Assembly (NCBI GenBank): GCA_963920665.1
Contig: OY987270.1
Location: 17,510,019-17,574,018, forward strand
Direction: 5' to 3'
Origin: Straminergon stramineum
Taxonomy: Eukaryota; Streptophyta; Bryopsida; Hypnales; Calliergonaceae
Length of the DNA: 64,000 bases
Each line of letters starts with the position of its first letter. The stretch's first letter is position 1. A program made the translations under genes and the position numbers. Shown one piece after another: positions 4,279-40,409 of this stretch. Under the pieces are notes generated by a model. The model worked only from the letters and a program-made list of their open reading frames with translations, did no database searches and was not told the origin of the DNA.

Positions 4279-5175
4279 GTTAGTACATTCTCTTTGCATT
4301 TTTTTTCAGATGTAGCAAATAGAATGAGTCTTTCTAGCCATGTGCGACAGGCATACATAGAAGATTCCAGGTAGGGAATTAGCTAGATTTGCCGTTCATC
4401 AATGCAATGGCAGAAATAGCAACTCGAGTAAGCATTAGCTGATCAGAGAATTCCACTTCCATTGTTGCAGAATTTTACTCACCTCCAACATTGAAATTAC
4501 AGAGATAGTTTTGGTGTATACACAGGCGTGCTTAGAAAATCCTGATTGTTATACGTAGGCCTCGAATTCACAGATATTAGGTGTAATTGCTAAGGCGAGG
4601 AATGATGTAAGCGTTTCTTCGCGGAATGAGATATAGAAGCTTTTCAACGTTCTTTGGCAATTCCAGTCTCTGATGTCAGATTCTCCGCACTTCTGAATTG
4701 TTTATATATTGTGGTCTTTGAGAGTGGTCTTGGCATCTATATTTGAATTTTGTCATAGTCTGAGAATGATTTCATGATGTCATAATCTGAGAATGAATTT
4801 GGATGAGTCATTGTGTCAAAGTCACCATTCCTTCCCACTTACTACTGCTTGAATGAAGTCTAGTTTATGCATTTCCTACATACTTTGCCTTGAAGTCCAA
4901 ATGCCGTAAGCCTTCAAGTCATGAATGTAATTTGACGAATTCATTACCATTCACTAGTGAGATTGTGTTCTCTTGGACTTCCCTCTAGTAAGCTGCTCAT
5001 GTTGTGATTGTTCAACCTCGCTATGAGGTCACTACCAAACCACATGAACTCTGACTGTGCCCTTCCAAAATTCATACCTTGAATGTCTCCCCATGTGTGT
5101 CATTTGGGTACGTCATGTCCTATTTGACTCTTACTTGATGGGTCTCGTAACATTATTGAATTTCGTGGCTTGCAG
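4279..5175 (+). other. Intron of piggyBac A transposase
   Basis: An 897-bp AT-rich interval between a GTTAGT donor and a TTGCAG acceptor. The two flanking open frames fit in phase (phase 2, split Cys codon), and stop codons are frequent inside. Confidence 0.65.
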
Positions 5176-7480
5176 TGCATACTATGAGGGCAGTGATTTT
5201 CTTCAAAGTACAGTGAGAGGACTCGACCCTACCTTTGCAGCATTGCAACGCATGCAAGAGTGGCTTCACCATGACAACAACGAAGGGGAAAATGGCAATC
5301 CAGATTTGGATGAGTACTTGCCACGATTGGAGGGGCCCTTTGGGATTGTCAATATGCGGCTGCTGCCACCTGTAGTGTGGGTGCCACTTCCACTTCTAGG
5401 ATATGATCCAGTCCAATGGGTTGGTCTACAAGAGTTTGTAGGTGAACCACAACAACGATGGCAAGAGAAAGGTGTCCCATACTACTTTGTCTTGTTCAAA
5501 GGTAGCATTGGTGGGCGAAAAGTCCGTGTTGCAGATTGTCATGTGTGTCAGGGTGGTGGCCCACTTGTACAAGCAGGCTTTGGAGCAAGCCCATCGAATG
5601 CCCATGTTGAAGGTTTGGATGATGATGATATCCCTAACTTCCCAACCCAACGATTAGACGAAGACCTAGCTTCTCCATTACATCGCCTGCACCCCATAGT
5701 AGTAGAGGACCTCCCCATAGAGGTCACAAGTGGTCCCTCATCCTCTACCAGCAACGACACATCAGAATCAGAGTGGAGGGCTGATTGGCGAGACTTTGCA
5801 GGAGATGCTTCCTCTATTGAGTACTCCAATTGTGAATCTGCATCTGAGGGCAGCAATGTGGATCTTCATCATGAGATCGGATACTATGAGGGTGATGGTG
5901 ACATTGACGACCTTGACTTCCAGGCTCGATACCATGACAGGTTTTGGCAAAGCCCAGAAACTACACTTTTAGGGGACAGGGAATCATTTACTAGTCTGCC
6001 TCTAGGTCCCACAGCTAGAGTTCCTCGTACTAGACGTCCTGCCTTGCACTTCTTCGATCTCTTCTTTGACGATAGGGTATTGAACGAGGTAGTTCAACAA
6101 ACAAATATCTACGCATCTCAACAAGGTACAAGACGGTCAAAGCACACAAATGGTGGCCCTCATTGGGTTCTAACATGTCCTTTGGAAATACGAGCATTTT
6201 TAGGTGTAACCATTCTCATGGGCATCAAGATGATGCCTACTATACGGGACTATTGGAAGTGGTCTGAGTTTCTCCGATGCTCCTTGATACCACGTGTCTT
6301 TACTCGCAACCGCTTCGAATCTTTACTACGATGCCTACATCTTGTGAATAACGAGAGCATTGATAGTGACTGGGATTCACCGCATTATGACAAGCTTGCT
6401 AAAGTCAGGTGGATTATTTCTGACTTTGTCACAAAGAGTCAAGCATTCTACAACCCTGAGAAGTTCATCACATGTGATGAGATTATGGTTGCATATCGCG
6501 GCCACTACTTAGGATTTTGGCAATACATGCCGGCGAAGCCAACAAAATATGGCTTCAAATTCTTTGCTAGTGTGTGCAACCCCTCACGATAAATATACAA
6601 CCTATTGCCCTATGTTGGGGCTTTAGGAGTTCCAGATCATGGGCAAGGCGAACGAGTTGTGCGGGAACTCACCTTGGGCTTAGATGGTGTTGGGCACATA
6701 GTTGTTTGTGACAACTTCTTCACATCATCGAAGTTGTTCGAGGACTTGTACAAGCGCGAGATATGGGCGACGGGGACCTTGAAGGAGAACCGCATTGGAT
6801 TGCCAACATCACTATTGGGCCACAAGAAAAGGGAGCACCCCCGTGGCACCTTGATGTGGAGGATGCATGCCCAACGATGTATGGCCACTACATGTTGGTA
6901 TGACTCCAAGCTTGTGTACTTTCTATCCACATCCGTAGATCTTGTAGCCGATGGAGCACGCTCCATGCGTTGGGTGCAGGGCACTCGAAAGCCGATCACT
7001 TCTACTCCCCAGCAAGTGGAGTACCAAACTCACATGCGTGGCGTTGATGTTGTGGACCAAATGCGCACCGACTATAGTGTGCAATTCCATTCACACAAAT
7101 GGTGGCACAAGCATTTGTTCTTCATTGTTGATTGTTGGTTGAACAATTCATGGGTGCTCCTAAAGCATGACTGACTCACTTGAGGCGAAAAAGTGTATCG
7201 AAAGAGGCTACCGTATCACATGGAGGTAGTAGAGGCTTTGATAGCTCCATGGTTGGATGCACCCTCGTCATGCAAGGTGGAATGCCTTTGCCACCCGACT
7301 GCATTGCATTATAGCAGTATACGCCCAAACCTATTGCATCAATGCATTGTTTGCAAACGTAGGACCAGATTTAGGTGCACTACTTGTGCTGGCGCTCACA
7401 TGTGTTTTGACAAGTGCTTTGTCAAAGTGCACAGTCTGAAAAAGTGGGCTCTTCGTGTAACTCGACCTGCCCGTCATTGA
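5176..7480 (+). pseudogene. piggyBac A transposase, catalytic exon (DDE_Tnp_1_7 type)
   Basis: The core of the transposase, which cuts and pastes the element at TTAA. A second extension block lies at 5372-5540 (WVPLPLLGY, GLQEFVGEP, FKGSIGG, VADC) and is shared with element B. An acidic linker follows, then the DDD catalytic core: ITCDEIMVAYRG, VVCDNFFTS and MRGVDVVDQM carry the three aspartates expected in piggyBac/PGBD proteins. The C-terminus is a Cys-rich domain (CIVCKRR, CTTC, MCFDKCF, KVH), also typical of the family. Breaks, all in one frame: TAA at 6590-6592 where B has Tyr, and two TGA codons (7172-7174 and a few codons on), both explicable as CGA to TGA. The frame ends at TGA 7478-7480. 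Without those stops the exon would be fully open. Confidence 0.93.
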
Positions 7481-8752: not shown

Positions 8753-9899
8753 GCCTTCTTATGAAAAGTGTAGGATAAAAATATGAGCTTGCATTGGGTG
8801 TACACGACCCTCTAGAGATCACTTGTAAAGTTTCACAATTTTATGTATTGCAAAAGTCAATTTTTTGAAAAGTCAACAGTTTTAATCAACATTGATAAAT
8901 TCTTAGAAATTAACTAAATTGCAATAAAATTCTAATAAAAATTAGAATAGAATTTTTAGTAGTAATTAAGCCCCCTAACAAGTTTTAAGGCATTTTGACT
9001 TCAACAAATACCCAAACGGTGTCGTGATGTGGGCTCTCTAATATTTGAAGTTGACATCTTTATTAGTTTCAAAAATGTTGTTAGTGTTGTTAATGTTATT
9101 AGTTGTTAGTATTGTGTGTTGGGAGCTGTTAGAGTAAGGAGGTTGTTGTTGTTAACCATGTAATTACTAGTTGATAATCAGTTTGTTAGTAGTTGATACT
9201 AAGGTAGTAGGATTAGGATTAGGGTTAGTTGGCGACTAGCCACTAGGGTTTGTAGAGGCTACTTGAAGCAAGGGCTGGTTCCTTGCTCTCTCTCTTGTTT
9301 TTGTTTTCTTGTTTTTAGTGGTGGGAGTAGAGGGGTGTACTTGAGGATGGAGAGTTATTTTGTTGTGAAGATTTATTTGGATGTTGGATGGATGCAAAAT
9401 TTTAGGTCTAAGTTTTTAGAGAGTTGATACTCAATGAGGCCAAGTTTTAAATCTAGATCTATTATGGGGAAAAAATTATAAAGGTTTGAAGTGGAGGTAT
9501 TTGGATTCTAAGGTAGCCAAGGAAGGCATATTGAAGAGTGTCAATCTTTTTTGGCGTTTTATGTTTTGCCAATGAAACTTAGAAGATACTTTTTTTTTAC
9601 CTTATCTACTCTCTTGTGTCAAAATTTTAGCTTCAATGAGTTTTAGATCTATGAGTTATGCATAAAATACAACCAGGGTATGAAAGTAGTGAAGGGTTGG
9701 AAAGTTAGTATTAGTAAAATGTCTAGCAAAGTTGGACAATAATTTAAATTAAGTTGAAATTTGGTATGTGATCTCTTAGGTAGTTGATCTACATTGTAAC
9801 AAAGTTTCAAGATGTTTGGGGCTACTATGCATGTTTTATAATAGGGTGATTGCAAGAAACACTTGTCCTATTTGTTGCGTTTTCGGTTTTTGCTGCGTC
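8753..9899. other. AT-rich spacer between two DNA transposons
   Basis: No coding signal. A GTTGTTAGT-rich stretch at about 9070-9240 is followed by CTCTCTCTTG / TTGTTTT sequence and resembles a worn plant LTR or UTR, but I found neither a partner repeat nor a primer-binding site. Confidence 0.4.
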
Positions 9900-11144
9900 A
9901 GTCCTATTAGTACTACAAGTCCTGCGAGTACTATGAAGGGTACGGGAGATGAAACATGGACCATCGATTGGAATCGAGATGAAACATTGGGAAGACACGT
10001 GAACGCATGGTAGTGGATGACAGTAGGAGATGTCAGGGAAGGATGATGTTTTGGGATAGTCCCTGTCATCCGCAATTCCGTCGTCTCTTTCAATTTGGCG
10101 TTCTGCTTTAATTCGCCAATCACGATTACCTAGGGTTTCCTGCAAAATGCAAAATTCTGTGTTGTCGATGTAGCCCATGCTCGATAATCATCGCGCTCCC
10201 AACCGCCTCCCAATCTGATCGTTTCATCGCAAGAGTGTTGATCGCGAGGCTTCTGCTGCTATTCTTGCCCGACATTGTGTATTCGTAGTTGTGGTGTGAA
10301 GGGCGGTTCAGATGACTGAGAGACAGTGCATACAATTCACAAAGTTCACGGAGTGGATCAATGTGGAGTTCGCTGATCGGTGGAGGTTGTCAAGGTGTGC
10401 GTCTACTACAGTCGCTGTTGCTCCGAGGGCACTACAAATCACAGTTTTGGACGGCTGCGTAGGTTAGAGACACTTTCATACTTCTGTTTTGAATTCCATT
10501 ATCAATTCCATTAGGAATCCGGGTTTTGGGTCGTCATCCATTGGCAAAAGTTCTTGCCCCATCAGCATAGCTTCATTCTCTCATGGGGTTAAAGCGTAGC
10601 ATGTTAGGGTTCAGGGTTCAATTACATGAAATGTCGCTTGTGGATGTACTTGTTGATTGCTTTCCTGTCCAATTCCAGCTTCTCTAAATTAACTACGACA
10701 TAGGGTTCAAGTTTCACCTGCATTATCAATTCACGCTTGAAATCGATGCACCTGTTGTCATTTAGGGCAGTTTGTGCTAGGGTGGTGTAGCGCGCCTCGT
10801 GATGCAAGTTGTTTCCCGTCCGGCGTCCAGACTTCCCCTTCTTGTTCAATGATCCTTCCTCGTAGGCAACCACATTCATTTCTGTTATTGAATTGACCTA
10901 GCATTTTTTCTTCCAGCACTTGACCTTCTCTCCTTGTGGGTCCTGCATGTATAGTTGTCGTCCCTCTGTGCGGACTGTGTAGTCCTCTACAACTTCCGCT
11001 TTGTCCTACAGACTCCATTTAGTACTGCATTAGTACTGTGGCATATATCTAGTCTTACATAAGTACTATAAGAACTACTGAATGTGACATTAAGCTGCCA
11101 ATTGTATGTTTTGTGCATGTACATAGTTGAAAGCAGTGTGCACA

Positions 11145-13816
11145 ATGGCGAAGATGAAGAGTACGACGGCGGATAACCGAGGCCGACCTCAACCAACTCA
11201 GCATGCATGTGTCGAGGACAGCAGTGGCGCTGATGACGGCAATGCCATTACGTACGAGAAGAAGGGGAAGAGAAGAACAACATCACATCCAGTTCAATCT
11301 GACTTGGACAAAGGGGGGCTTGGGGGGGCTTCTGCTGTAGGAGAAGGTGGAAGCAACAACAACAAAAAGGGTGGAAGGGCAGGACCTAGTCCAAAGAAGA
11401 AGCATAAGCGGGTAGCTTCGCCATCCCCATCCTGAGGAAGTAGCGACGACGCTTCAGATAGCGAAGCCTTGGAGTAGCAGTCGAAGAGGAAACCGGCCAA
11501 GCGCAAGAAACTCGCCCCCACTGACAAAGAGTACACGGAGGACGAATGCCGCCACCAGCTCAATCTCCTCAACCACCCATCCAAGCGCCCTCCCACAGCC
11601 ATGTCAAAAGACATTTTCCACACTTCCTACAAGCTCCCCCAAGATGGACAAAATCCGCATAGGCTTCGCATGGACAAAGACGTGCCCCTAGCTGATGTGC
11701 AGGCCTTGCTTGGCGAAGAGAAGGGGCGGAATGGTTTCCTTATCACAGAAAGGTTGACTCCCGCTTTGCGGAAAGAGGTGGAGTCACTGTATTGCCGGAT
11801 TTACCAGAAGACGCACTCCAGCACTCATGTAGGGAAGGAGTTGGCCATGGGGTGGACTCTGCAGACACAAGGCCATGCCATCAATTGGGCAGGCTTCGTT
11901 GCTGAAACCAATTTGGGACAACGGAAACAATATGCCCGACGTGTGAAGACGTGGTTGACAAGGATTGCCGAAGCGCAAAATAGACCATTCGTTGAGGTCG
12001 TCCAAGAAGAGGCAATTTCGAAGTACTTGGATGTCAAGGACGACAATAAGCTAGTCTTACAGCTATTCGGAGATGGATAGGACATTCTTCCTCGGAATGT
12101 AAAACCTGAGCAGGTGCATCAACGTCTTCCGTCTATGATCGACACTTGCCAGGTTGAAAGGTACGTTCATCCTCTCTTCTCAAAGTTTGCTACTTCACCC
12201 TTACGAACTAGCATGGTCGTTGGCCATGCAGTACTTTAGTGCATTCCGATGAACTGTGTATCACTGCGTCGGGCAATGGATGACTACTACTAGGGTAGTA
12301 CTACTCAGTGCATTAGTTCATCGTCAATGCCCTTTGTCCTCTCGTCTACAGGACTGTATCCCTCGGAGTCCTCATACTACTTTAGTGCACTAGCGCGCGG
12401 AATTTCATGGAGTAACGCTCATGTACTTCTGCACTTGGAGTTGTCCTTCTAGATAAGGCAACTCTACAAAGTCATGCCAGCTTCTTCCTTAATGCCTCAT
12501 CCATGCTTACAGTACTGTCCAGTAGGACTTCTACCACTGACTACCTCCTATCCTTCGTTAGTGATGCACTTCTCTTCCACATGCTGAGTTTGACACACTA
12601 CACTTGTGTCCTTCTTGTCCTACGCAATGTACTCCCACGGATTGTCGGTTGTAATCTGTGAGGAAGAAGGGACTCACCGGTAAGAAATAGTACTACAGAA
12701 ACAGTCTTTTGTACTAATCATTCCTTGTACTTCCATAACGTATTGTCAACGTCCTCAACGACACGATAATGTGACCACTACAGTGCTCACAGGACTAATA
12801 ACAAACATGATGCACATATTCAGTACTTAAACCATCCGAACCCGTGCACTGTGGACTTCGTTGGGACGAAGGTAGCTGCTCGTATTCCCTTCAGGACTTT
12901 AGTGAGGTCTTGCATTATACTTAGAGTACTACAGTACTACATGTTCTTCGGAACATACATCACTGTACTTGTGTGCACAGGAGAAGTGATATGAAGTACT
13001 CTTAGGACTTCGATGAGTGCTTTGTTGTACTATGAGGAGGTCTGCTTGTCTGAGTACTAACCACCTACTTTACGTTCCATGGGTTGTAGGAAGGCCGAGG
13101 TTGAGGACCTAGTGAAATTTGTCACTGGGAACTTGAGGAAACTCGAATGCGATGTTGAGGCACTACAAACCAAGGCGGATTCTGCAGCAGAGCAACAGCG
13201 AGCTAGTCTACTCGGAATTCAGTAAGTGCAAGACACAATGACAGAGATGGCAGAGGAAGGCGGCTCCAAATTTCTGAAGCGCTTACTAGACAGCCACTCG
13301 AAGAAGATGAAGGAATTGACAACCGTGGAAAGTAACATGTGTAGAGCTCTTGATGATGTGACAGGGAAAATATTGGGTACTCAATCTTGCCTTGCAGCAT
13401 TGGAAGAGCACCTCGAAGACCTAGTGCGGGGTGGAGAAGGAGCAATACTCCACCCCCATCCGTAGCCCAATCACGTTGAAGCGATTTTTAAGGATGTATC
13501 CATTGCCTTCAGTCTGGAGCTTTAGCGCTGTGTTGCATGCTCGGAGGGCTTCCCTTATACAGATGTGCTTGTCTGTGCTTGCAGGCATGTGTATCACCCA
13601 TGGTGCGCGACACAGTGGTTCAAGGCGACATCCCTGTGCGCTCATAGTAATTGCGGCGCGGTTCATCCAATGTGGTTGAAAAGCTGGGGTTTCCTTGCCT
13701 CACTTGACAAAGTGAGAAAAACAAAGGAGCCTACAATAGTCAAAGGCCTCTCTATTGTTCTCGGTCGGGGTCCCTCTACCCATAAACACCTATCGGGACA
13801 TGTCATCGATATGTGA
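11145..13816 (+). pseudogene. Coiled-coil protein with CHHC-type zinc finger, decayed
   Basis: Exon 1 opens at ATG 11145 and codes a Lys/Arg-rich, probably nuclear N-terminus (KKKHKR, KRKPAKRKK) followed by a roughly 200-residue region I do not recognise (blocks YTEDECRHQLNLL and FVEVVQEEAISKYL). It reaches a GTACGT donor after 12160. Stops interrupt the same frame at 11433 (TGA), 11475 (TAG) and 12078 (TAG). The next exon starts after TTGTAG at about 13090 and codes a heptad-rich coiled coil (VEDLVKFVTGNLRKLE onward). A cysteine finger follows: CVACSEGFPYTDVLVCAC, then HVYHPWC, then a C..C pair and VHPMW, resembling RING/PHD-like fingers of plant transposon proteins. It may be a separate gene or the N-terminal half of the SET gene downstream. 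Confidence 0.55.
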
Positions 13817-14158
13817 CTACTTCTCCCTGCACTAAGAGAAGGCTATCTTGTACTTCCAATTCATAGTGTTCAACATAGCAGCACCACACAACATTAGTTT
13901 CCAATCATTAACGCCTTCTTTCCGTTGGCTTCAAGACTAGCCCAATAGTACAAATGTAATAGGATGTACAATAGTAGGACTACAGTACTCCCTTCCTTGT
14001 TTCCTGTATGTAAAAGTACCAGTCCTAGTTTGAACATTGGTACATTGTTGGTGCTCTTCTTGAATGTCTCTCTTTTCTTCCGTGCTCACTGCATTCATGA
14101 GAACAGAGAAGCAAATTGCGACTCACCTTGACCACGAACACTATGGACTGCATGTGCA

Positions 14159-15705
14159 GGCCTTTCCTCCATTGGAACTGGGGCACCTAGCATGTCCGCT
14201 TCTGACAGCACATTCACGAAGTGTTTCGGTGGGGACAAGTACTCCTCGCGTGGAAATATCGTTCTTTTAGGCAAACGACTACGGGATGACAGTCGTGTAG
14301 CGGGCACTCCAGACGGCGATGCCACGTCTAATCCTTTTGAATCTAAATGCTTCATTGTCTTTGCGGGAATCAAACATAGTCGTTGCAACATGCCTCTTCC
14401 ACTGTCTTCATCGGATGCACAGGAGTTTCCATTAGGGACTCACATTACCACGGAGAATGTGGAAGATGTTGTTGCAGTTACTCCCGCCTCAGGAGCACCA
14501 ATTGCCTCACCACAGTGTCCAGCAGTGGAGACTATGCTAGGGGACAAAAAGAAAGACAAAGGTCTTCCTACCCGTGAGTCCTTAGCATCATCGGCTGCAA
14601 CAAAGCTCTTTCGAACTTCTTCCCCAGCGGTAGTATAAGGGGAACCCATAGCTCTTCCGGATTCACCAGCAACGGAGGTGGACATTTTGAAGCTGCAGTT
14701 CAGCCAGAAAGAGAAGACGCCCAGTGCTCTAGACTTGGAGTTACATCAACTGGATTTGTAGTCCCTAGGATTCAGCGACACAAACGACGGTCATCCCAGT
14801 GCACCTATGTGCACTATAGAGTTCCATGTTCCTGTGGTATGTGGCCTTATAATGAAATCTGCTCTTCTCTACCCGATCATTCAATACATAGTCGAGTCTT
14901 CTGAATTCCGGATGTAGTTTGTAATCCTTTTCTGTATTTGAAGACAAAGAAAGCCTTTCTGTTGTCGATGTAGGACTTCAGTGGCTTCCAGAGTAATACA
15001 TGTAATTTGATCACCGTGGGTGAATGCAGGAGGTGACGCGCGAAGAAAGTGCTAATGCCAATGAAGATGACCCCTGGGATTTGATGGTGAAAGAGGATGT
15101 TGCACTCATGGGTTCAACTGCCGCTGTTGTGGCCAATGTTTTACCACTGGCGTCGAGAGAACCAAAGGAGAAACTGTCACCATCCGTAGAGGCCGACCAG
15201 GCTTGCAGCCCAGTGAAAGGCGTCATTAGAAACACCTCGTCAGGTACGCCACGCAACAAGAATGACTAGTCCTAATACATGTGGAGTCATTTACGAAAGT
15301 AACCGTATTAGCCGACATTTCAGTCAGTAAAAAGGACTCCTAGTACTCTCAATACTTGCAAGGAGTATACACAATGTACTTGCATGTACTATTTCAGTAC
15401 TAGGGAGCACTCACATGAATACTTTCTGTATGGCTCTATGTGTTCTAATGTTGACTATATACTGCCTTTGCAGTCACAATACACATTATGCGCGCTACAT
15501 CTGAAGTGATACACCTTCCATTCTTGTGGACTATGCTGTGCTAGGTAAAGGAGGAAGTCGTCGTGCGTCGAAGTCTGGTAAGTTGCCTGATGAATTCCGT
15601 AGGCAGTTGCGACCTCGGCCAGCTGGGGGTTCCCCAATTTCGATGTCTAGTCCTCCTTCGACTGGTCCTGCAGAAACTTCGAGTTCCGGAGAGGTGGGTA
15701 AAAAG
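14159..15705 (+). pseudogene. Low-complexity exons, probably N-terminal part of the SET gene
   Basis: Three open stretches separated by AGTACT-rich introns. 14159-14835 follows a TGCAG acceptor and has stops TAA 14636 and TAG 14759 in an otherwise open, Ser/Pro/Asp-rich frame. About 15027-15243 is acidic (NANEDDPWDLMVKED). About 15520-15690 is basic and Ser/Pro-rich (RRASKSGKLPDEFRRQ), with a GTGGGT donor. No catalytic domain is visible. Their position directly upstream of the pre-SET exons, on the same strand, suggests one gene. Plant SUVR proteins have long, poorly conserved N-termini of this kind, but I see no WIYLD domain. Confidence 0.45.
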
Positions 15706-16021
15706 TGACACTATTGCGCGACTGCAAGCACAAGGCATTGTGGTGGACTATGCGTTCAGAGGGGGGACTGCCTCCGCCACTTTTGAGAGACGCTAGCCTA
15801 GAGTGCAGGAATTTCAAGCAGCAATGAGTGTCCGCTTTCCATATAGTTCTTGGGCCGCATCTCAGAAGTAAAAGGGGGCAGTCCAGGGAAGGCCTATGGG
15901 CCTTTGGATAGTAGTGGGTGCAGCACTTCACCCTTTTCTTGGTATCCATGTACTTCATGCTTATGCAATATATAGTTTCGGACGGCTTTGTGTTTGTTGT
16001 ATAATGTGTTGGTCTCAACAG

Positions 16022-17791
16022 GAGGTACGGTCAACGACTCAGTGTGATTTGTCACGTGGCATGGAAAAGGTCCCCATACTGTTTGCGGGATGTTGTACAC
16101 CGCTTTCCGTATCGCCCTTAGATACGGACTATACATATGTTTGCAGTCCCATATTGCATCAATCAGTGAGTGTTGAAGCTCTAGCTGCAGCATATTATGT
16201 ACATATGTTTCCCTTATGCACTTTTGGAAGGAACTCCGGTCTTCCCGGTGGAGTGACTTCACCGTGGGAGGAGAATGCAGGGTTAACATACTTGGATGAC
16301 AGTACCCTTCACTCGCGGTACATCAAGCAGGTGAGTGCGGGCTTCTCCTTGCCTATCCCTCATGTCATTACTTCCTAGGACTACGGAGTTGTATAGTACT
16401 CATTAGTTGTGCCATGTAGTACAGTGACATCCATGTAGTCCTATAGTACTCATTAGTTGTGCCATGTAGTATAGTACGTGAAATCCACGTAGTCCTATAG
16501 TACTCATTTGCTCTGGCATAGAGTACAGTGAAATGAAGATCCATCCGGAAACTGAACCCGCTGTCCTATTTTCCTGACTAGTAGTAAGTGCCAGTTCCAG
16601 ATGACCCGCACTTTGGCGAATGGAGGTCTAGTTCGTTGTCATGGGCAAAATGCCTGCCTTGAACTGTGGGGAGGTCGCTGTGCAGGGCATGTGCAATGAC
16701 AGTACATTAGAGAATGCTTCCGTGTATGTGGTTGCGGCCTACCCTGCAAGAATAGAGTGGTGCAAAGAGGTGTTACACACAAACTGGAGGTACGCAAGGT
16801 TCCTTTGCTTGCTTGTGCATGCTCAAGATGGAAACAATGAAAACGTGGCTGAGAAATGATTAGCAATGGTGAGGGCCTCGAAGGGAACTTGAATTCGGTA
16901 AGATTTGAAGTAGCTGTGTTAGTGGAGGATGGGCATGAAATCCGCACTTGCAATTCTGTTCGACGAATGACATGCAAGCATCTCTCATTTTCAGCAGCAG
17001 AACATATCGGATGTTCCAAGTAACTTGCTTTCCAAATTCGTGCATGATAACCTGTGCACGCACAATGTAATTATGTTTTCAGTCATCAGTGCCGTGGGAT
17101 GGTAGCAGGTTTTCTCCGTCTCTACTACGAAGGATTGGGGCATTCATACACTGCAACGGCTCAGCCGCAGTTCTTTTGTGTTTGAATACGGCGGAGAAAT
17201 AGTGACAAATGCAGAGCTTCTGGCTAGTAAAATATGTCAGAAGTATTGTGTTGCTTTAGATGCGCATTGGCAGTCTGAGATGAACTAGGGAGATGACTCA
17301 CTGCTGACCATTGATGCATCCACAATCACAAACGTCGGTAGGTGGCTGAACCACAGGTGCATCGTTGATTCTGTATTAAATTTACTTTGGACTTCCCCAT
17401 ACAACCGTTGAATAGCTTCAGGGGCTTTTGTTGAAGGAATTCAACTTTCTTGTTTGATTTTGCCATTGTAGATGTGGCGATGCAAACCTGATGGATATTC
17501 CAATCTCAATGGAGCACAGCATCCCCACACTATACCATGTAAGTACTACATGTGATTGTAGATAGTGTTTGGTTACATAGTATGTAACCGCTGTCCACCA
17601 TACAGGTCTGTATCATGTAATAAGTTGTATCGTCCTTGTTAATGCAGGTGGCCTATTTTACCGTCCGGGAAGTAGCGGAGGGGGAAGAATTAATATGGGA
17701 TTATGGATGCTAATTTCAGAGAAAAGATGGAAGACATGTCCCATTCAAATGTACTTGCGGCAGTGACCTGTGTAGAGTGCCTGCGGATTAG
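16022..17791 (+). pseudogene. SUVR-type histone H3K9 methyltransferase domain (pre-SET, SET, post-SET)
   Basis: Exons around 16022-16170 code a pre-SET start (DLSRGMEKVPI, DTDYTYV). An exon ending at 16789 codes the Cys-rich pre-SET core IRECF.VCGCGLPCKNRVVQRG. 17109-17356 starts VFSVSTTKDWGIHTL and contains FEYGGEIV and the first part of the SET fold. 17472-17538 codes CGDANLMDIPI. 17648-17791 codes VAYFTVREV, GEELIWDYG and post-SET C.CGSDLC. The last three introns have GT..AG ends and join in phase. The resulting NHRC.DANL motif is the SUVR1/2/4 variant of the SET signature. Such enzymes methylate H3K9 using S-adenosylmethionine. Breaks: TGA at 16697-16699, TAG at about 17288 and TAA 17711-17713, all explicable by C to T. 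The residues expected to bind cofactor (NH, the Tyr of WDYG) are retained. Confidence 0.85.
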
Positions 17792-18212
17792 GACTGTCCT
17801 ATGTACATCCCAGGGGACTATTGTACCCTCAAACATTACATAGTGAGCATTTCATTTTACCGAATAGGACAATTCGTAGTACTCATAATACAACATAGTA
17901 GTGATTTTCTATGAATGACTAACTTCAGTACAGGCGAATAATTGTGGTCTAGCAAAGGAAGCTTCTGAGAGCAACAATAAAAATATTGCATGTAATTACA
18001 TCTGTAGCAATGAAAACAATGATCACTGTAGATACAAGTGTGGACGGCTCAGGTAATGCCTGCACACTATTTAATAAAACCGGGGCCTTCTTATATTGAC
18101 TTCTCAGGACTGTTTTGAAGAAGAGAACTGCATGCGGCAATGCATTGCACTTGCAAGTGTGCCGATAGATTGTCATATTCTTATACCCTACTAGCGCTAT
18201 GTTATGAGTCTA

Positions 18213-21200
18213 AGAAGTTATGTTCCATGAGACATCAAGTTCCATCATTTATGCATCCATTTCTTCTAGGGCTGTGTTGATGACGTCAACAGTCTCATCT
18301 GAGAGAGTATACACTGCATCTCCCCCCTGCACTCGGTGGTTTCTAGGAATCATTTAGAACTTACAGGCCAAGACTGAGTCGGCGTCCACGAAGGCCTCCC
18401 TGGAATTACGTAAGAACATATAGTAGTTAGCATTTCTTCGTCCCCATTTCTGATAGTACATTGCGGAAATGACGGAGTCTCCCGCTTGAAAATGCCCCCC
18501 CCATACGCAGTCAAAATCTTCTTCGACAATGTGTTTTGGCCTTTGACATTGTAAAATGTAGAATGACAACCCTTCGTCGTTATTTTCATTGGCCGGGATA
18601 GCGAAATTGTCTCCTGCCTACACTAAGTCACCCATGCTTTCATCGTCGTATTCGTACTCCCAACTGTCATCGTCATCCCCTGGGACCATGAGCGCAGCTA
18701 CGAATTCCACATTTCGTGGGTGTATCTTAGTGACCTTCCAAGCCTTTATGTAGGATTTCTTCTCGCAATGACTGAAATCTTCCTCCACGCAAGGGCCGCA
18801 GAAGCATGACAACGGCCGTAGTAACAGTTTCGTGGGATCGTGCTTATCTGGAGCAAAGATAGAGTGCAGTTTTGAGGATCCAGGGATTGGATCACAAGAT
18901 TGGGAATTCCCACGGTCAACCTCATGTAGCCGTACATGATGGAAATATTGATATGACCTACATGCATGTGAGAAGGAGTCAGTCAGTAACAAATGCACTA
19001 TTCTTTACTATGAAACTACAAGAATGCGTAGAATTGCATAATCGTCAACGACAGCCTTCGAGGAAGATGGAGCATCTCACAGTACACGTACAGATCCTTC
19101 GCTAAGGCAATGAGTACTATGCGGCACCCATAGCTTACTTTACGAAGACTACTACACCATTCAGTACTATGCAGTACATAGAGCTCACTGTAAGAAAACT
19201 ATTGTGCTAGAGAGTACTATGAGGTATACATAGCTTAATTTAAGAGGCATTTTTGGGAAACAGAGGAAGCTGGTACTACATATATAATGTGAGACAGCAA
19301 TAGCTTCTGAATAGACGTGTAAAACAATGGAGAAAAGCAAAGCATGGAATGAGGAACCTCATGCCCCCGTGTCGATTAGGAATTGGTCCTGCCATAGTAG
19401 CATTAAGGAACTGAACACAGTCTTGTGCATTTTGGAGGCGTTTGTGAGGATTGACGAGCTGCTCATTGCGAAGAGACCTTTTGATGACTGCCCTAGTACC
19501 GTCCCATTCACCTTTTCCATGGCCCGTCCCATAATAGTTCCAAAGCATCTTGCAGCCGCCCGTAAGGGTTGGATATCTACATCCACTTAGAAGAAACACA
19601 GTGTGAGTGAAGTGTAGGGTACTTGACCCCATCAGTGATTTCTGGGAATGGGTTTGTACATGAACGTGGCATGAACCATTATACATGCCAGACGATGCCT
19701 TGGAAATTAGCTATACGTATAGGACTCAAACTATACTATGAGTACTACTGAAGACTGCGCAGAGCAACAGGACATGGCAAATGAGTTCCTTCCAACTTTT
19801 TTTTTAACACGAAGCATTACAGAGGGAAGCATCACCTGGCTATGAAGTACATGGCCTTGGCACTCTTGAACTGACCTACAAATCCATCACTGAAGACGTA
19901 GTGAATGGATGGGGTCAGTCCTTTTGATTGCATCCACCTCTAGTGGAGCATGAGGCAATGTTGCGCAAAGTCCGTATCGTGCATTTTGTCATCGGAGATG
20001 TAGTAGTGCGTCTCTCTCATCATCTACACCCCCCCTTGCCCCACATCTTCCGCAACATCCGGTGAGTACGTCACTTGCACAAGAATAGTGATTTGGTCAG
20101 AATGGTAGTACATGGACTGAATCTCATTCTGAGGTTCGAATGTGTAATTCTCCGAGAAATCGATGTGCGTCAAGACAGCGCCTCCTTGCAAGCACGCTTG
20201 GAGGAGCTTGGCTTGCTGTGTTTGCCACTTGGCTATGAAATTATGGCGAATGAATTGCTGAAGTGAAGGATAGAAGAAGTCGAGGAACTCAGAAAATGAA
20301 GTCGTCCTCAACACCTCTTTGATGCGCTTCTTCGGCTGACCGTCCGCTGATGTGCCGACAACCTCGTATTGAAACTACTTCCATTGAATGGTGCAAGTAG
20401 CGTCGATCATCCTTTCTCGTGGACAAACGTCAAAGAATTGCAGACCACATCTACTGCAAGCTCCTAGCAAGCATTTAGGGTGATGGAATTCCTCATCCTC
20501 CATCTTCGGACACATGAGCACTTCCCATAGTGCGGTGACAGAAGGAAATCAACTTCGTCCAACATTACAAACTCCTTCTTGGTTGGTGTCGCAAACAGTG
20601 CACTGGCAATCACAGAGGAAGATGACATGCGCCCCTCTAGAAGGATCGCAGAAGGCGTTCAAGGCCTCCAGAAGATAAAGCACTTGAATGTGGTATCGAC
20701 AGCAACAGACATTTCGCTCTTTGCACTTGATAACGAAAAAAGGACAGAGGTTGATGAAAGCCCAGTGCTGGATGGCACACTCTGGGTGCTTCTCAATGAA
20801 TTGTGTGTACAACTGCATCTAGAAGACATTCACAGAATAGAAGTTAGGGATGTCAACTTCAACTCACATGAAACTGTGAGCCCAAGAAGTAGTTTTGTCA
20901 CAGTACTTCTAAAGTACTAGTGTCACTGCATTAAGTACTCAAACAAGCACTACAAGGTCACTGATAGTACTATATAGTACTTGCATGAAAAGAAAGTAAT
21001 ATTCAAGTCACTCATGTTGTACAGAGGAGGATTGCAGTAGTACCTTTTAAAGACAGCACATGACGTTCAAGAGTTATGGGGACTCGAAGAGGATAGGCAG
21101 TGGATGACCCGTGCACTCTAAAGGACTCAGTGATCACGGAATAGTGATTCGGAAGGACTAAATCATTGCAAAGCACGACAAGCTCATGCCGTCCAAGTGC

Positions 21201-23715
21201 GTAAGTGTCGCGCCCCTTAGTGACACTTACCACCTTAAGCTCACTTTCCAAACACTTAGCACCTTAGTGCCACTAAGGTTCACGCTCTCCTAACACTGCA
21301 CATGCCACGCACCCACAATGTTAGGTTCCAACCCAAGTCATGGGGTTCCCCATTCCTCCGTGACTCCCAATCCTTTCCTTCTAATCCTTAACTCCCACAA
21401 GACACCGGGCATGTCATTTGATGACATAGGGCGGAACTTCCATTGATGTCCAAGCAATCGGTGAGGCACTACTCCCACCGGTGCTAACCGCCCTTGAATG
21501 GGACCCAACTCCCCACTAGGCCCAACCCAACTCATTTCGGGACTCACTAATCGGGACTCACCCAACGGGACTCACACCATGGCCTAGTGTAGAGTGGGAC
21601 ACCACCCAACCGGTATCAAGGAGTGCACAAGCACTCCATGGTAACACACAAGTGGTGGTGAGGCTCCAACACTAACCTCACCACCCGGGGCCACTTAGGC
21701 TCACCATAGCACCATCCGGGAGTGAGGAGGGAGACCACCCCTCCTCATAGTACTCTCTGCGGGATTCGGCAGCCCCCCCCGTACTAGAGGTCACCGGGAA
21801 CCCCCAAGATGCACCTCATCTTGGAAGACCACCCATTTCTCCCGATTCGCACTACTTTGGGACTCCCGAACTTCCACCCGGCATAACTTTGCGGTCCGGG
21901 ATCCAAATCACACATGCGACCCCATTTTCGACATCTACGCGACGCGTAGATGCCGATGGACTACTCACTTGCTCCATTCGGACAAGTACTCGCAAAGATA
22001 TCGCCCTCCAAAGATTCGGGACACTCCCGCCGCGGCCGGGACACTCCCGGCGCGACCGGGACACCCTCAACTTTGAACGCCCATAACTTTTGACTCGCAA
22101 GTCCAAATCACGCGTTCTTTGGACGGCTAGAAGCGTCTTCTCAAGACCTTTCCAAGCATGTATCACACGCCTTCAAATTCATCCGGATCAGAGCGCTACA
22201 TCGCTCTGATCGCTCGGGACTCCTAGTCCCCCTCACCTCATCTCTTGCAAGGCTTGGGGAGTCACCCCCAATGTCCCCCTTGCTCACCAAGGTGGCACGG
22301 GCACGCCTTGTGATGAGGGTCGTGACAGTAAGAAGTAACTAGAAGTACATTACGCAATAAGGCATAAGTGAACTTAATACTGCAACATACTCCTCAGGAA
22401 CCAGAAAGGCAGAGAAAGGAGTACAGGCGGTCCGTGTAGTACAGTGTCATCCACTCATGCATCACTGCCGTCTTAGGACAGCATACGCAGTCCAAAGAGG
22501 ACATCGGTTGTAGCAAAGCATTAGGAGGTGCCACTTCAGCATGTACAGGGTACTCCGCAAGCAATGCCTAGTAATGTTCATCAAGTCATGTCGTCAGTGA
22601 CGTGTATGAATGACTACCTCACGGAAAGCAAGTACTACTTACTAAGAGGCGTGTAGTCATTTGTCCATTGCCACTAGCTGAAAGGACTCTTGCTTACTTC
22701 AAAAGTACTATCAGCCGTGTGTGTAATACATTATGCACTACAAAGGAGTATGACATTGTAATCTGGAAAGGCTGGGCAGACTATGAAAATCAAAGGAGGT
22801 CCTATGGGTAAGATGGGGAACTATATAATAGTGAGGACATATCCTGAAAGTACCTCATGCATGGAAGACTAGGTACATATTGGGTATAGGAAGACAACCG
22901 AATACAGTTTCGTCATGAAACGAGGTGTAGAAAGGGATGATGTAGGACGTCCGAGGACTAAGTTACTCGGTAATAACCTTGGGTCAATTGCCGATGTGGT
23001 GTATGTTAAATTGTTCTACACATAATCATAAGTGCTCAAAATGTCTACATTGTAGAGGACGGCATAATCCTCCACATATGCAAGTTGAACTGTAACTACG
23101 AAACACATTGCATTGAACTTTGAGGAACATGAAAGTGAATGGGGAAAGAGGAACCTGGCTTTCCAAGAGAAGATGAGCTGCATGTGTATCATACAAACTC
23201 CGTCCGAGGCGTTTCCTACGAACGTCCCGACGTCTTGGACTAACTCGAGTTTTTTTTGTCCACCACTGCAACACAAGAGCCTTGACAGCATCGTCAATCC
23301 CCCCTTCTCGTTTCTTCCGTGCTGGGACTTGGTATCGGGTTGACGTAGCCTCTATAGCAAATCGGAGGCGCTCCACAGCTGCCACCAAATTCTCCTTTCG
23401 TGTACCAAGAATGTTGTGGAAGTTCGTGAGGTCTGAATCTAATTCGCCGACCACTGCTTCCAGGATGGCGTGCTTCTGAGCCAACATTCCAGAAGAATGT
23501 GGGATCTTCAGGGCCTGCAAATCGGCACGAATGTTCTGCAGTATTTCCCTTTGGGCCCGTGCTTCTTCAAGAGTAGGGTAGTAATCAGGAAGTAAAGGAC
23601 GAACATGGCGACTACTGAAAACCTTGTTGAGAACTTTCGCTCTGAAAGCAGGATTCCGAATTCGTGCCAATAATCTCGTCAGAGAACTCGCGATTTGTTG
23701 AGCACTTCACTAGAC
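18213..23715 (-). pseudogene. Multi-exon DDE-type transposase, decayed
   Basis: The N-terminal exon (about 23715-23155) ends in TRVSPRRRDVRRKRLG and LLLESQ, with donor CAG|GTTCCT. The 2.3-kb intron 20819-23154 holds a solo LTR. The core exon 20818-19836 begins MQLYTQFIEKHPE and carries a Cys-rich stretch (CLLGACSRCG), HIDFSENYTF, NEIQSMYY and VFSDGFVGQFK. Exon 19585-19358 carries WNYYGTGHGKGEWDGTRAVIKR. The last exons (about 18853-18213) carry RPLSCFCGPC and a C-terminal domain. D in DFSENY, D in SDG and D/E in HGKGEWDG are the likely catalytic triad. Joins between the first three exons keep phase. Stops include TGA 20549-20551 and TAG 20375-20377. I recall similar predicted proteins in animals, but I cannot assign a superfamily with confidence (a Sola-like group is one candidate). 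Confidence 0.8.
21206..22327 (-). mobile_element. Solo LTR of the Ty3/gypsy family at 39.2-47.1 kb
   Basis: A 1122-bp LTR in reverse orientation (TG..CA ends) flanked by a perfect 5-bp duplication GTAAG at 21201-21205 and 22328-22332. It matches the 1179-bp LTRs downstream along its length. The 57-bp length difference is fully explained by two fewer 20-bp GC-rich repeat units and one fewer 17-bp repeat unit. It lies inside an intron of the decayed transposase. A solo LTR is expected after recombination between the two LTRs of a full element. Confidence 0.96.
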
Positions 23716-24244
23716 ACTTGTCCGGTGCCTCCTGGAGCCCAATCGAAGTGTAATAGCGTCGATTCCATCTACCGGCTCCCCTGCTTCTATACCTCGTCGT
23801 TGCGTGATTGCACAGTTTGCTCGGCTGCACCGTTGACGATCCCTCCAACGACTTCGTTGATGTTCCACCGCAACAACCAACAATCGCTGTCGAGTCCGCG
23901 GACCTGGACGACCGTCAGGACGGACACCATCCATGCCAACATTTCAAATCCAAGTATCTGCACACGTAATCCAGAACAACAACATAACCTAAACCCACCT
24001 ACAAAAAATTGCACAAAACCCATGAAAATCATTCCGCCTTCCCATGACAGCTTGGGGGACCAAAGGGAGACAGCAGTGTGCAACCGAAACTAGCGACAGC
24101 ATTCAACCGCCGAAACGCATAGCCACTAGAAACTCAGCCATAAAGACGTCGTCGTGAAAGCAGTCCATGTTGGCAAATTTGTAGGCATAGTGGGCCCCGC
24201 CTAGTACTAAGGAGTCCTACACTATACCTTGGACTACTATTTTC

Positions 24245-24790
24245 TGACAGTGTCTTCAATTTACCCCAGAAAATGAAGCTGGAACATTCCCATTTTTGAA
24301 AAATAGTTAATGATTTTGGAAAAATAAATTTAAAAGTGGCCATTATTGACAAGTGAGAGAACTACTGAATGGAGCAAGAAGAAATTGGAAAACATTTTGT
24401 ATTACTTAGAAAATGTTGTGTAAACATCGCACACATCGGAGCAATGCCAAAGGCAATTGAAACATAATTTTGCAAATCCCTCTCCACAAAAGTTGTAATT
24501 CCACTACAGCAGCTCACTGTCCAGTTTTGACGATGTAATCCTTCAAAAAAGGTACTCGACAGTACTAAAAACTATCAAAACCGCAAATGTGACATGTAAA
24601 TGAAATTCAATTTCACACCCTAAAATAATTTTGAAAAATTCAGATTAATTTGTATTCATTCATTAGTGCTAGAGGAACCTACGTTTTGAATTTCATGTTC
24701 ATTCAATCATTTCTCCAATAGTTATGGCACAAAACAATCACTGCATTGAAAGTGTGACGCAAAATAGGACAGGTGTTTCTTGCAATCACC
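24245..24790 (+). repeat. Dispersed repeat, copy 1
   Basis: Diverged copy of the sequence at 34728-35238. Shared landmarks in the same order: AAATCCCTCT, AGGTACTCGAYAGTACTAAAA, TTTTGAATTTCAT.TTCATTCA, ATGGCRCAAAACAA and AATAGGACASGTGTTTCTTG. It has no coding capacity. Its left edge coincides with the right edge of the giant transposon. Confidence 0.75.
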
Positions 24791-27700
24791 CAATAGATCA
24801 AAGTTAAGTATGGCAGTTTCTAGGGCATTGAGTGAATCATAAAATATGGATCTGGGGAAAAAGGGGGTTTTGAGGGTAGATTTATGGATATTTAGGGTGT
24901 TTAGGGGTATCATAGTTATAAGCAAGCATTACCATAGCAAAGGCCTAGTGCTATTCCAAACACGTTCACAAATCTTTGTGACTACGGACAAATTTAGCCA
25001 TTTTTAACAAATTTAAAACAAATTTGAGGTATTGATCGGAGTTATGAGAGCATATAACATCTTAACAAAGATAAAATGGAGTATTTTATTACTCCAAAAA
25101 TCCTATTAAAGACCCCAAGCAAGTCTATTTTGTAGAAAATATAATTTGTGTTGAACTCTAAAAAATCTTAGGGTTAAATGAGGAGGAGAGGCCTTGAGGT
25201 AAAGTATAAAAGGACACCTTTTCTGCTCCCAAACCACCATTGTTCTAATATTATACCTTGAAGGCCATATTCATTATATTGAGACCTTTTGCAGTCTCTA
25301 TTTTATCCTCAACTCAAAGATAAACCGTTTTATCTCTTTAGTGGTATTTTTTTATAAATAGGTAACAACACCAACTTTTAGAATTTCATTATAGGATCAC
25401 TATTTGAGCATTATTTATTTTTGGTTTCAATTCCTAATTTTTTAAATGAATTTTCCAGTAACTAGCATTATGTCTCAAAATCTACAAAAAGTCTCAATAT
25501 AACAAATATGACCTTCTTGTTGATTGTTCTACTTAGTGATTTTTTAGCCAATTTGGCCAAATTTTATAAACACAGTATTTTGGGGATGTTTTATATTCCC
25601 TCCATCCCCAAATGATCTTCATGTTTGACAAAATGTTGGGGATAAATTTAAAGATTTTTAATTTTGTTTTGACATATAAATAAAGTACAATGCTCTCCTA
25701 TTGTCCTCTAGATTTGAACTTAGAATTCAAATTCAATTAGTAGTTGTGGAGCTTCAAAATATGTATTTTGGAGGCTTTTTTTGAGTAGCATTGCTAGTCA
25801 ATGAATTCTATAGTTCTTGTGCTCTCTATTCTAACTTTATATCTTTTGCCACGTGAGTTGTAGCTCCTACTTTGACATGACATACTCTTATCGGTGCTAT
25901 AGTATGGTTTAAAATAACCATTGTAAGAACTTGTATTTTATTGTACATATATACAATGTCACTTCACACCAATTCTCATAAAGAACTCCTAAAATAGACT
26001 GTGGTATTGAATCTGCATTGTACATCTTAAACACTCCATCATCCAAATAATACTGTGATTATCTATTCTTGATTAAAAAAAAACATTTGCACTCATCATT
26101 AGGGAAGGAATTTCTTTATAGCCTTGGTATTTCATTTCGCGGGCTCTTCCTCCATGTCACAAGAGGAAGATCATTTGGGGATAAATTATTACGGCCAATA
26201 GGAGGATCATTTTGGAACACATAGAGTACTATTTTGTAGAGTTTAGGTGCATCCTTAGAAGGCAATGGGGATACCTTCAAATCTTGTCATCCTTCTTCTT
26301 GTTTAAGTGTTTTTTGTTCTAATATCTTTGGAATTTATAGTCTTATGTTTTATATAAACCCTAGAGAATTTGGTCTATACTAATAGTCAAAGTTTTCTAA
26401 AGTTTCATACAATTTTGAAGTGTGTGTTTTTCACAAGGGCTTCTTTAGTAGGAATTTCAATTTGTTGAGAATCCCCCTAGAACCCTGACATGTTAAAAGT
26501 TTGATTCCTAACAAGTTCTTTAGTTCCGTATTTATATTTCTTATACTTTACAGTGAGGTCTTGACTTTGCCCATACTATTCCAAGAGCTTTGAGGCTCAT
26601 CATTAGTACCCATTTATTTCCTTGTTTTTTGTCTGTTTGACAAAACTTGGACTTGTAGTAGCTCTTATTAATAGACATTCTCTTTCCTTATCTTTTATTT
26701 TGCAATTGCCTTGAGTGAGCCCACCACTTATAGAGCTCTAAACCCCCTTCCTCTCGAAAAAAACACCTAGCTCTCCAATCTAGTTGGACAAGGTTTAAGC
26801 CCAATTCTCTAGCCTAGTTAAACAAAGTATAAACCTAGCTCCTCAAATCCAATTATATAAAGTTTAAACCCAGCTCTTTAAACACATTTCCTTGTAAGAA
26901 TCTTAGTAATTACAAAAATGCTTAAAATAGTATGAAATTTCCAAGAAAAATGGAAATAGTTGTGAATTAGGACAAATTTTATGGTGTAGTTGATATCCTC
27001 CTTGAGCTCATACCAAGAGGAATTATGTAGAAAAAGCTCAAAAAGTAGTATATTTTGAACTTTCAAGATGCTTTATTTGAAGTGTCTCATAAATTACAAT
27101 AATAACATTTTTGAAAAAAATTTAAATGAATAAAAAATATATTATTGGAGCTACATTTTCTTAGTTAAGTTTTAAAATGTATAAAATCAATTACTACGTG
27201 AAAAATTCAGATTTTGGCTTTCAAAATGGCCATGCATGGGGCTTGCAATATCCTTTAATAGTTAAACAAAATGTAGGCCTAGCTCCCTAAGCCTAATTAA
27301 ATAGAAATCAAGTCAACCTCAAACTCCATTTGACAAAGTGTAAGGTCAATTACCGACTCAATTAGATAGCTCATTTAAACACCATCTACCCAAAGCCATT
27401 TAAACAAAGTGTAAGGCCAACTATTGACTTGTTAGATAGAGTGTATTACCATCTACAACCTTGCTGGTTAGAGCCAACCTTCATAGACAATTGGCTTTGG
27501 AGCAAAGAACTTCCAAATTCAAGAGAAAAAAACAAGAAAAAATTAAATTCAAATCCTTAGGGATTTTTAGAAAATATCACACTTTAAAAGAATAAGAAAT
27601 CAAAGAAGATAAGTGAGGATGAAGTTTAGTAGTCAAGGGAATTAATTTTGGATGAAAAATATCATAAATCATCTAAGTCAAATTGAAAAATAATTCCAAA

Positions 27701-40363: not shown

Positions 40364-40365
40364 CT

Positions 40366-40377
40366 TGGTATCAGAGT
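40366..40377 (+). promoter_or_regulatory. Primer-binding site (initiator tRNA-Met)
   Basis: TGGTATCAGAGT starts 2 bases after the 5' LTR. It matches the 3' end complement of plant initiator tRNA-Met (TGGTATCAGAGC) at 11 of 12 positions. It primes minus-strand DNA synthesis. Confidence 0.92.
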
Positions 40378-40409
40378 AGGGCTACGTAGTGCGACGGAGT
40401 TTGGAAGGC

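Follow-up and report, generated by a model that had tools for sequence, protein, structure and literature searches.

A three-gene DNA transposon in a moss genome

We analysed a stretch of 64,000 nucleotides from the moss Straminergon stramineum (GenBank assembly GCA_963920665.1, contig OY987270.1, positions 17,510,019 to 17,574,018, forward strand; hereafter the window), in which a DNA transposon occupies positions 9844-24791. Three genes lie between a single pair of inverted ends flanked by 4-bp duplications: a RING-like/coiled-coil gene (11145-13816, plus strand), a gene with a SUVR-type SET domain (15024-17791, plus strand) and a transposase gene (23706-18257, minus strand). The window copy measures 14.9 kb including a solo long terminal repeat (LTR), and the element about 13.8 kb without it. 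An earlier reading of the bare sequence (the sequence-only reading) had proposed that a transposon at 9900-24245 carries its own SUVR-type histone methyltransferase. The region is indeed one element, with true borders slightly wider than proposed; the 33-nt inverted ends, the 4-bp duplication, the RING-like/coiled-coil gene and the solo LTR go beyond that reading.

The element is flanked by the target-site duplication AATA (left copy 9840..9843, right copy 24792..24795). The left terminal inverted repeat (GGGTGATTGCAAGAAACAC..., 9844..9873, plus strand) pairs with the right one (24762..24791, minus strand). Taken as 33-nt arms (9841-9873 and 24762-24794) the ends are 94% complementary, and a 19-nt core is found with zero mismatches at both of them. 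Across the genome searched (326 Mb, nearly all of it in 11 of the 59 contigs) this core occurs 1028 times in forward and 1049 times in reverse orientation, and the reversed control gives 0 occurrences. In viral contigs the end pattern had 0 occurrences, and alignment of the transposase yielded no relative among 129 stretches.

The three-gene element has moved as a single unit. The sequence-only reading had named several copies holding both SET gene and transposase in convergent order, with shared ends, as the sign of such an element, and this is what the two further whole copies (2/2) show from end to end. The copy at C3:45.09M aligns with the window element over 11,374 + 2,470 nt at 95%; it is 13,824 nt long, has the duplication ATTA and contains no solo LTR. 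The copy at C8:12.89M matches at 94-96% along its length and has the duplication ACAC, with two base changes in its left end. An exact 4-bp duplication is thus present in all three full elements. Among ten short relatives with paired ends whose loci were read, six have exact duplications (L001 TAAT, L008 AATC, L057 6475-7206 ATAA, L058 ATAT, window 34343-35238 AATT, L068 TGCA), three differ by one of the four bases (L003 and two in L059) and one (L057 68-2536) has none. The relative at window 34343-35238 is a non-autonomous element of about 0.9 kb whose ends are of the same type, and its part 34690-35238 is 68% like 24257-24794. Three mid-size stretches between ends in L057-L059, checked as possible SET-less autonomous copies, gave no transposase, SET or RING match.

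The solo LTR (21206..22327, minus strand) lies in a transposase intron, is flanked by the duplication GTAAG and is absent from the C3 copy; it is a 93.9% match to the Gypsy family of an intact window element at 39185-47076. The 1.18-kb LTRs of that Gypsy element are 100% identical and its insertion is therefore recent; it has the duplication TTATC and a Pfam Chromo domain (6e-13) at the C-terminus of its integrase. LTRs of the family are present at different positions in the window element and in the C8 copy, where the LTR is 92% like that of the window and sits within a transposase exon.

Genes of the element

The RING-like/coiled-coil gene has a first large exon (11145..12160, plus strand, 3' end approximate), over which the C8 and C3 copies agree at 88%, and a last exon (13094..13816, plus strand, start approximate) with a RING-like cysteine/histidine cluster. 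Each carries three in-frame stops in the window, and the C3 copy is open through the last exon.

The SET gene, also on the plus strand, may begin with a 5' coding region at 14132..14635, an uncertain assignment with an open frame in both the window and the C3 copy and with no meaningful Pfam family. Its further exons are E1 (15024..15245, ungapped and recovered in 16 of the 18 close copies described below), E2 (15544..15693), the pre-SET-like E3 (16025..16330), E4 (16595..16789), which holds the second half of the pre-SET cluster, C-x3-C-x-C-x3-C, and one in-frame stop, E5 (17109..17357), the SET core ending at NHR and likewise with one in-frame stop, E6 (17473..17538), containing CGDANL, and E7 (17648..17791, stop codon included), which holds WDYG, the post-SET motif C-x-C-x4-C and one further in-frame stop. 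Pfam SET is matched at 1.4e-10 by the joined window pieces, in E5, and at 1.9e-14 by the C3 copy. Among solved structures the SET part matches EHMT2/EHMT1 best (2.5e-32), followed by SUV39H2, Clr4, SETMAR, DIM-5 and SUVH6, with H3K36 enzymes ranking lower. With a composite query the best named protein match is Daucus SUVR2 (47% over 42% of the query), and a Pistacia protein matches at 36%; a protein search with the SET region alone returned no match at E 0.001, perhaps an effect of word sampling. NHRC, WDYG and the post-SET cysteines are mostly retained in alignable copies, with scattered losses in single decayed ones.

The SET domain has NHxC, WDYG and the post-SET C-x-C-x4-C, which places it with the SUVR type, as the sequence-only reading had it. 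The joined C3 protein gives SET alone up to E 0.5 in Pfam and hence no SRA domain, with the 5' exon uncertain; we class the gene as SUVR-type because presence of an SRA domain would indicate SUVH. In having SET and post-SET and no SRA that we could find, the protein resembles the plant SUVR1/2/4 group as characterised in the available excerpts of PMC7218100 and PMC3063831, and it differs from that group in its eroded pre-SET region, in the lack of a detected WIYLD domain and in being multi-copy and mobile. Judging from its motifs, the element protein was probably an active methyltransferase; we go no higher than this because Daucus SUVR2, which is annotated as 'probable inactive', carries identical motifs.

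The transposase gene is decayed and multi-exon, runs on the minus strand from about 23706 to 18257 and ends about 0.47 kb from the SET stop, so that the two genes, both decayed, stand tail to tail as had been noticed from the sequence. It has an N-terminal exon (23153..23706), an exon (19834..20818) with DFSENY..QNEIQS and SDG..QFK, proposed to supply the first and second catalytic Asp, and with a stop within WK*FQY, an exon with approximate ends (19390..19590) containing GHGKGEWDG and the proposed third Asp, and a last exon (18257..18990, start approximate) encoding a cysteine-rich C-terminal region. Seven relatives were found (best E 3.4e-140), namely six proteins without names (jgi, lgn) and Klebsormidium nitens KFL_005820050. 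The Asp residues in SDG..QFK and HGKG..DGAGA are present in 7/7 of them and that of DFAENY in 6/7 (P0005 has Asn); some deep transposase copies carry Asn instead of the second or third proposed catalytic Asp. Neither the transposase pieces nor the relatives P0001 and P0007 matched a Pfam family beyond chance. The structure model of P0001 is weak (pLDDT 52.7), and since it is poor its fold matches are a hint at most: Foldseek gave none at E 0.001, with an IstA transposase on top at 0.016.

We propose that the enzyme is a DDD-type transposase. The 4-bp duplication, the candidate DDD residues and the occurrence in a moss would fit membership in the Sola superfamily, which is unproven. Sola elements, going by the available portions of PMC10741241 and PMC9033089, have 4-bp duplications and inverted ends like ours and a DDD transposase, the type proposed here; some exceed 15 kb, and they are known from a moss too, Physcomitrella; the descriptions in those portions mention no SET gene, and the likeness is judged by description, not by reference sequence.

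Close copies and diverged families

When the joined SET pieces were used as query, at least 119 matches were obtained (95 of 165 candidates scored). At least 18 of these, the window included, are close copies, and the remaining ones are more distant. Exon coverage in the close-copy alignments varies by copy, and the aligned SET exon stretches are ungapped across copies. The side downstream of SET is covered in 14 of the 18, and in all 14 (window included) the C-terminus of the transposase lies convergent and directly 3' of the SET gene. A convergent transposase also accompanies five of ten divergent SET loci, at once downstream in L043, L044, L045 and L051 and about 2.9 kb further at C11:2.73M.

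The gene order RING-like, SET, transposase is kept in two divergent loci. At C7:16.55M a relative of the RING gene (42%, and 26% in the RING-like last exon) is followed by SET and by a C-terminal transposase portion that starts at residue 363 of 809 (51-79%), and the left end is recognisable with two mismatches. At C11:2.73M a weak RING-gene-like stretch, matching the last exon (21%, E 6e-10 in a 27-kb search), precedes SET and a transposase that is 29-45% identical over longer stretches; element ends were not found at this locus. A third locus, C1:25.7M, has SET, a transposase at 50-61% and, with a single mismatch, the right end; no RING-like gene was found in this locus, which was read at length.

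Phylogenetic trees speak for co-inheritance of the two main genes within this group, since both agree on (C7,(C11,C1)). The inner branching of the SET tree is (C7,(C11,(C1,C3))) with support of 95/95/97, or 86/77/93 in a second run on other columns, and that of the transposase tree is (C7,(C11,C1)) with support of 96/91, or 94/87 in the second run. Branches among close copies are not resolved. The close and D copies are separate in the SET tree from the Daucus and Pistacia SUVR proteins and from a trio of SET genes on contig C11. That trio, the SUVR-like loci L046-L048, forms a group of its own, and one member lies inside a three-gene transposon. Two weaker SET matches on C11, 9183693 and 611674, are outside the tree placement, the latter without a stop in its matched stretch.

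Decay and selection

Terminal changes were counted in 14 close copies (C1b and C1e were dropped, and C11a and C1d fell in neither group), and 545 of the 650 are C-to-T or G-to-A. Per site, decay amounts to 0.10-0.12 at CG and CHG versus 0.013-0.016 at CHH, a rate seven to eight times as high. Once inserted, the copies decay in a nearly neutral way: nonsynonymous, synonymous and stop changes number 383/233/34, versus 404/217/30 expected without selection. The preference for CG and CHG can be read as a trace of CG/CHG methylation, and so of host silencing via the pathway tied to H3K9me2. The bias in these 14 copies would likewise preserve in their sequence a history of CHG methylation by the host.

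The consensus sequences of the two clades of close copies differ with a dN/dS of 0.39 (31.5 and 26.5 changes), and the codons of the SET core differ mostly at third positions, a pattern behind which stands no formal test: at codon positions 1/2/3 the clade A and clade B consensus show 1/4/12 changes in 130 codons, and divergent loci compared with the clade A consensus show 0.17/0.12/0.43 (C4b), 0.32/0.26/0.55 (C1) and 0.38/0.31/0.54 (C7). For the SET core (E4-E7) alone the test gives p 0.016, a value that is uncorrected and refers to a core chosen post hoc after the exons had been seen. For the N-terminal exons E1-E2, where changes are few, the ratios are near 1.

A short motif in the non-coding parts of the element

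The sequence-only reading had noticed an unusual composition shared by the introns of the two genes, and this composition is borne out by the palindrome AGTACT, which is in excess in the non-coding parts of both halves of the element. The 13.8-kb element (LTR excluded) contains 37 copies versus 3.6 expected (maximum of 8 among 200 simulations), corresponding to about 2.7 per kb versus 0.39 per kb in the rest of the window. Of the 37, 35 lie outside the approximate exons, 22 of them on the RING and SET side of the element and 13 on the transposase side. AGTACT ranks first among 6-mers in the window element, the C3 element and C1:25.7M; it is weak in C11 (8 copies), and the C7 locus has no excess (5 copies).

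Short motifs of this kind have a known parallel in VANDAL21, whose VANC21 protein reads a YAGTATTAY motif that is dense in the non-coding DNA of its own copies (available text of PMC5735166). VANDAL elements thus share with ours a transposon-encoded chromatin regulator and a short motif dense in their own non-coding DNA; they differ in being MuDR-type, in that the source does not describe VANC as a methyltransferase, and in that our motif is AGTACT with a reader that is hypothetical. A second parallel concerns ubiquitin, which SUVR4 binds and which alters its product, although statements on the direction conflict (PMC7218100, available excerpts). Because ubiquitin alters the product of SUVR4, a RING partner of the element enzyme would gain a purpose, and a RING ligase next to a SUVR-type enzyme is suggestive by this analogy, but no ubiquitin-binding WIYLD domain was found in the element SET protein. 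Together with the SUVR4-ubiquitin link, the AGTACT excess in both halves may be a clue toward self-recognition.

Other features of the window

Stretches at 5048-7174 (plus strand) and 38213-39418 (minus strand) match Pfam DDE_Tnp_1_7 (E 2e-37, 3e-31 and 7.5e-58), and we take them to be piggyBac-type. A likely host gene at 59016-61764 (plus strand) encodes a lipase class 3 domain (1.2e-18), after which comes a long open frame with no Pfam match.

Discussion

The window element is very likely a dead copy of a cut-and-paste DNA transposon that encodes a transposase, a SET protein of the SUVR type of histone H3K9 methyltransferase and a RING-like/coiled-coil protein. That both genes are decayed and that SUVR genes are common in plants would also fit a host SUVR pseudogene next to an unrelated transposon by chance, the alternative that the sequence-only reading had allowed for. 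At the C3 and C8 loci, however, the two genes lie in identical order inside the same ends, each locus with its own target duplication, and the convergent pair recurs in every covered close copy and in half of the divergent loci. At the window locus the end-to-end matches of C3:45.09M and C8:12.89M exclude a chance neighbour, and as a general explanation it is almost certainly wrong. A Harbinger-type element was considered and does not fit the 4-bp duplications (Harbinger relatives have duplications of 0, 2 or 3 bp in the available part of PMC12730594), and the transposase found here has no Pfam family.

What the SET gene does for the element is a separate question. We regard it as about evenly poised whether the SET protein acts in trans on the chromatin of its own element, recruited by an element protein that would read repeats such as AGTACT in non-coding DNA. 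As to the direction of such an effect, a self-limiting mark and interference with the host H3K9me2/CHG loop by a changed methylation state are possible, each somewhat short of evenly poised, and steering of insertions to certain chromatin or a substrate other than histones, for instance the transposase, would be rather unlikely. In its broadest form this idea holds that the lineage has kept a self-directed chromatin kit through deep diversification, in which a SUVR-type methyltransferase is joined by a RING-like protein, maybe as the source of the ubiquitin signal to which SUVR4-like enzymes respond, and by a family-specific AGTACT address code distributed over the non-coding DNA of the element; the histone state of the copies would then be set by the element rather than by the host. 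We offer this idea tentatively and consider it doubtful as a whole.

A number of results weigh against our main reading, that of a transposon with a SUVR-type methyltransferase and a RING-like protein among its products. No intact SET copy was seen: there are from 1 to 7 stops in each of the 18 close copies and at least one in all ten divergent loci, and the exon frame breaks off in 3/18 copies, C1b (E2), C1e (E3) and C1d (E3 and E6), which therefore have small indels there. The window and C3 copies share one transposase stop, the one in WK*FQY, so that these copies were either mobilised in trans or derived from an already broken one. Pairwise dN/dS within and between clades is 0.53-0.59, near the 0.63 expected from the mutation spectrum alone, and the internal dN/dS of the whole gene differs significantly neither from what the neutral spectrum predicts (p 0.15) nor from the terminal branches (p 0.32). 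C4b, the clearest third-position case, has no transposase in the stretch read downstream, and none was found within 4-9 kb downstream in five of the ten divergent loci (L049/L061, L050/L062, L052/L063, L047/L065 and L048/L068). D_C4 is placed differently in the SET and transposase trees, with weak support, and the SETs of the C11 trio (X_C11) group with the two angiosperm SUVR proteins (support 92 and 88) and not with the other elements, possibly through a second capture or through the place of the root, given that the references comprise two SUVR proteins. On the protein side, Pfam zf-RING_2 scores 8.3e-5 on the piece 13526-13813 and 0.029 on the joined C3 protein, both below the curated cut-off. 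Pfam Pre-SET has no match in the joined C3 protein, the first half of its cysteine cluster being eroded and the second half present, and it is for this incomplete cluster that we write 'SUVR-type' and not SUVR in full. WIYLD was not found in the element protein by Pfam (5' exon uncertain), versus 3e-21 for Daucus SUVR2. Arabidopsis SUVR1 and SUVR2 are without in vitro activity according to the available excerpts of PMC7218100.

Genes can be carried by transposons as passengers, as in Pack-type captures. A neutral passenger of this sort, captured and amplified without function for the element, would account for the decay of every copy read, for the whole-gene internal ratio and for the E1-E2 ratios near 1. 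The SET gene has persisted, however, with its catalytic motifs mostly retained, next to transposases whose identity has fallen to 29-79%, and the changes in its core are rich in third positions, so that we consider a passenger improbable. If the protein has a function, it may be an anti-silencing factor that shifts or blocks H3K9 methylation on the copies and thereby weakens host H3K9me2/CHG methylation. The CG/CHG decay, read as a trace of H3K9me2-linked silencing, and the family-specific short non-coding motif, as with VANC targets, agree with this, and plant and fungal transposons do encode such proteins, VANC and TET/JBP (PMC5735166 and PMC12730594, in the parts available); yet the mostly retained catalytic residues make a plain decoy less likely, and the C7 locus lacks the AGTACT excess, which leaves the proposal somewhat unlikely. 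To the same degree unlikely, in our view, is that the protein serves as a brake that silences its own copies in proportion to dose and limits harm to the host. The silencing-type decay of the copies would fit a brake as well, and SUVR4 is reported to act on Arabidopsis transposon chromatin (a title cited in PMC7218100), but self-silencing is harder to explain by selection on a selfish element.

The sequence-only reading knew of no described element with this pairing. That stands for plants, in that our literature search, which lay outside Repbase Reports and most subscription papers, found no plant transposon with a SET gene, and it does not stand for oomycetes, in which SET-carrying transposons have been described (Kojima 2025, PMC12730594, available part): HarbingerS and MuDR families of Phytophthora encode SET histone methyltransferases (Kojima and Jurka 2014, as cited there). 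Like the moss element, these families are DNA transposons that encode a SET histone methyltransferase of their own; they differ in their oomycete hosts and in other transposase superfamilies. New relative to them are the plant host, another type of transposase, without a Pfam family and with 4-bp duplications, the SUVR-type enzyme and the RING-like companion gene. Fungal transposons with TET/JBP dioxygenases (same source, available part) are also DNA transposons with an enzyme that acts on silencing marks, in fungi and by DNA demodification rather than histone methylation.

For annotation, these results carry a warning. All ten divergent SUVR-like loci that were aligned contain stops and five of them adjoin this transposase, and SUVR gene counts in such genomes may for this reason include transposon genes; no host SUVR gene was identified in this genome. 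For the biology of transposons, the element extends the SET-carrying kind from oomycetes to a plant, with another transposase and a RING-like third component. H3K9 methylation silences transposons, and an element with a relative of the H3K9 writers, kept through deep divergence, would make self-silencing, shielding or placement by histone marks testable.

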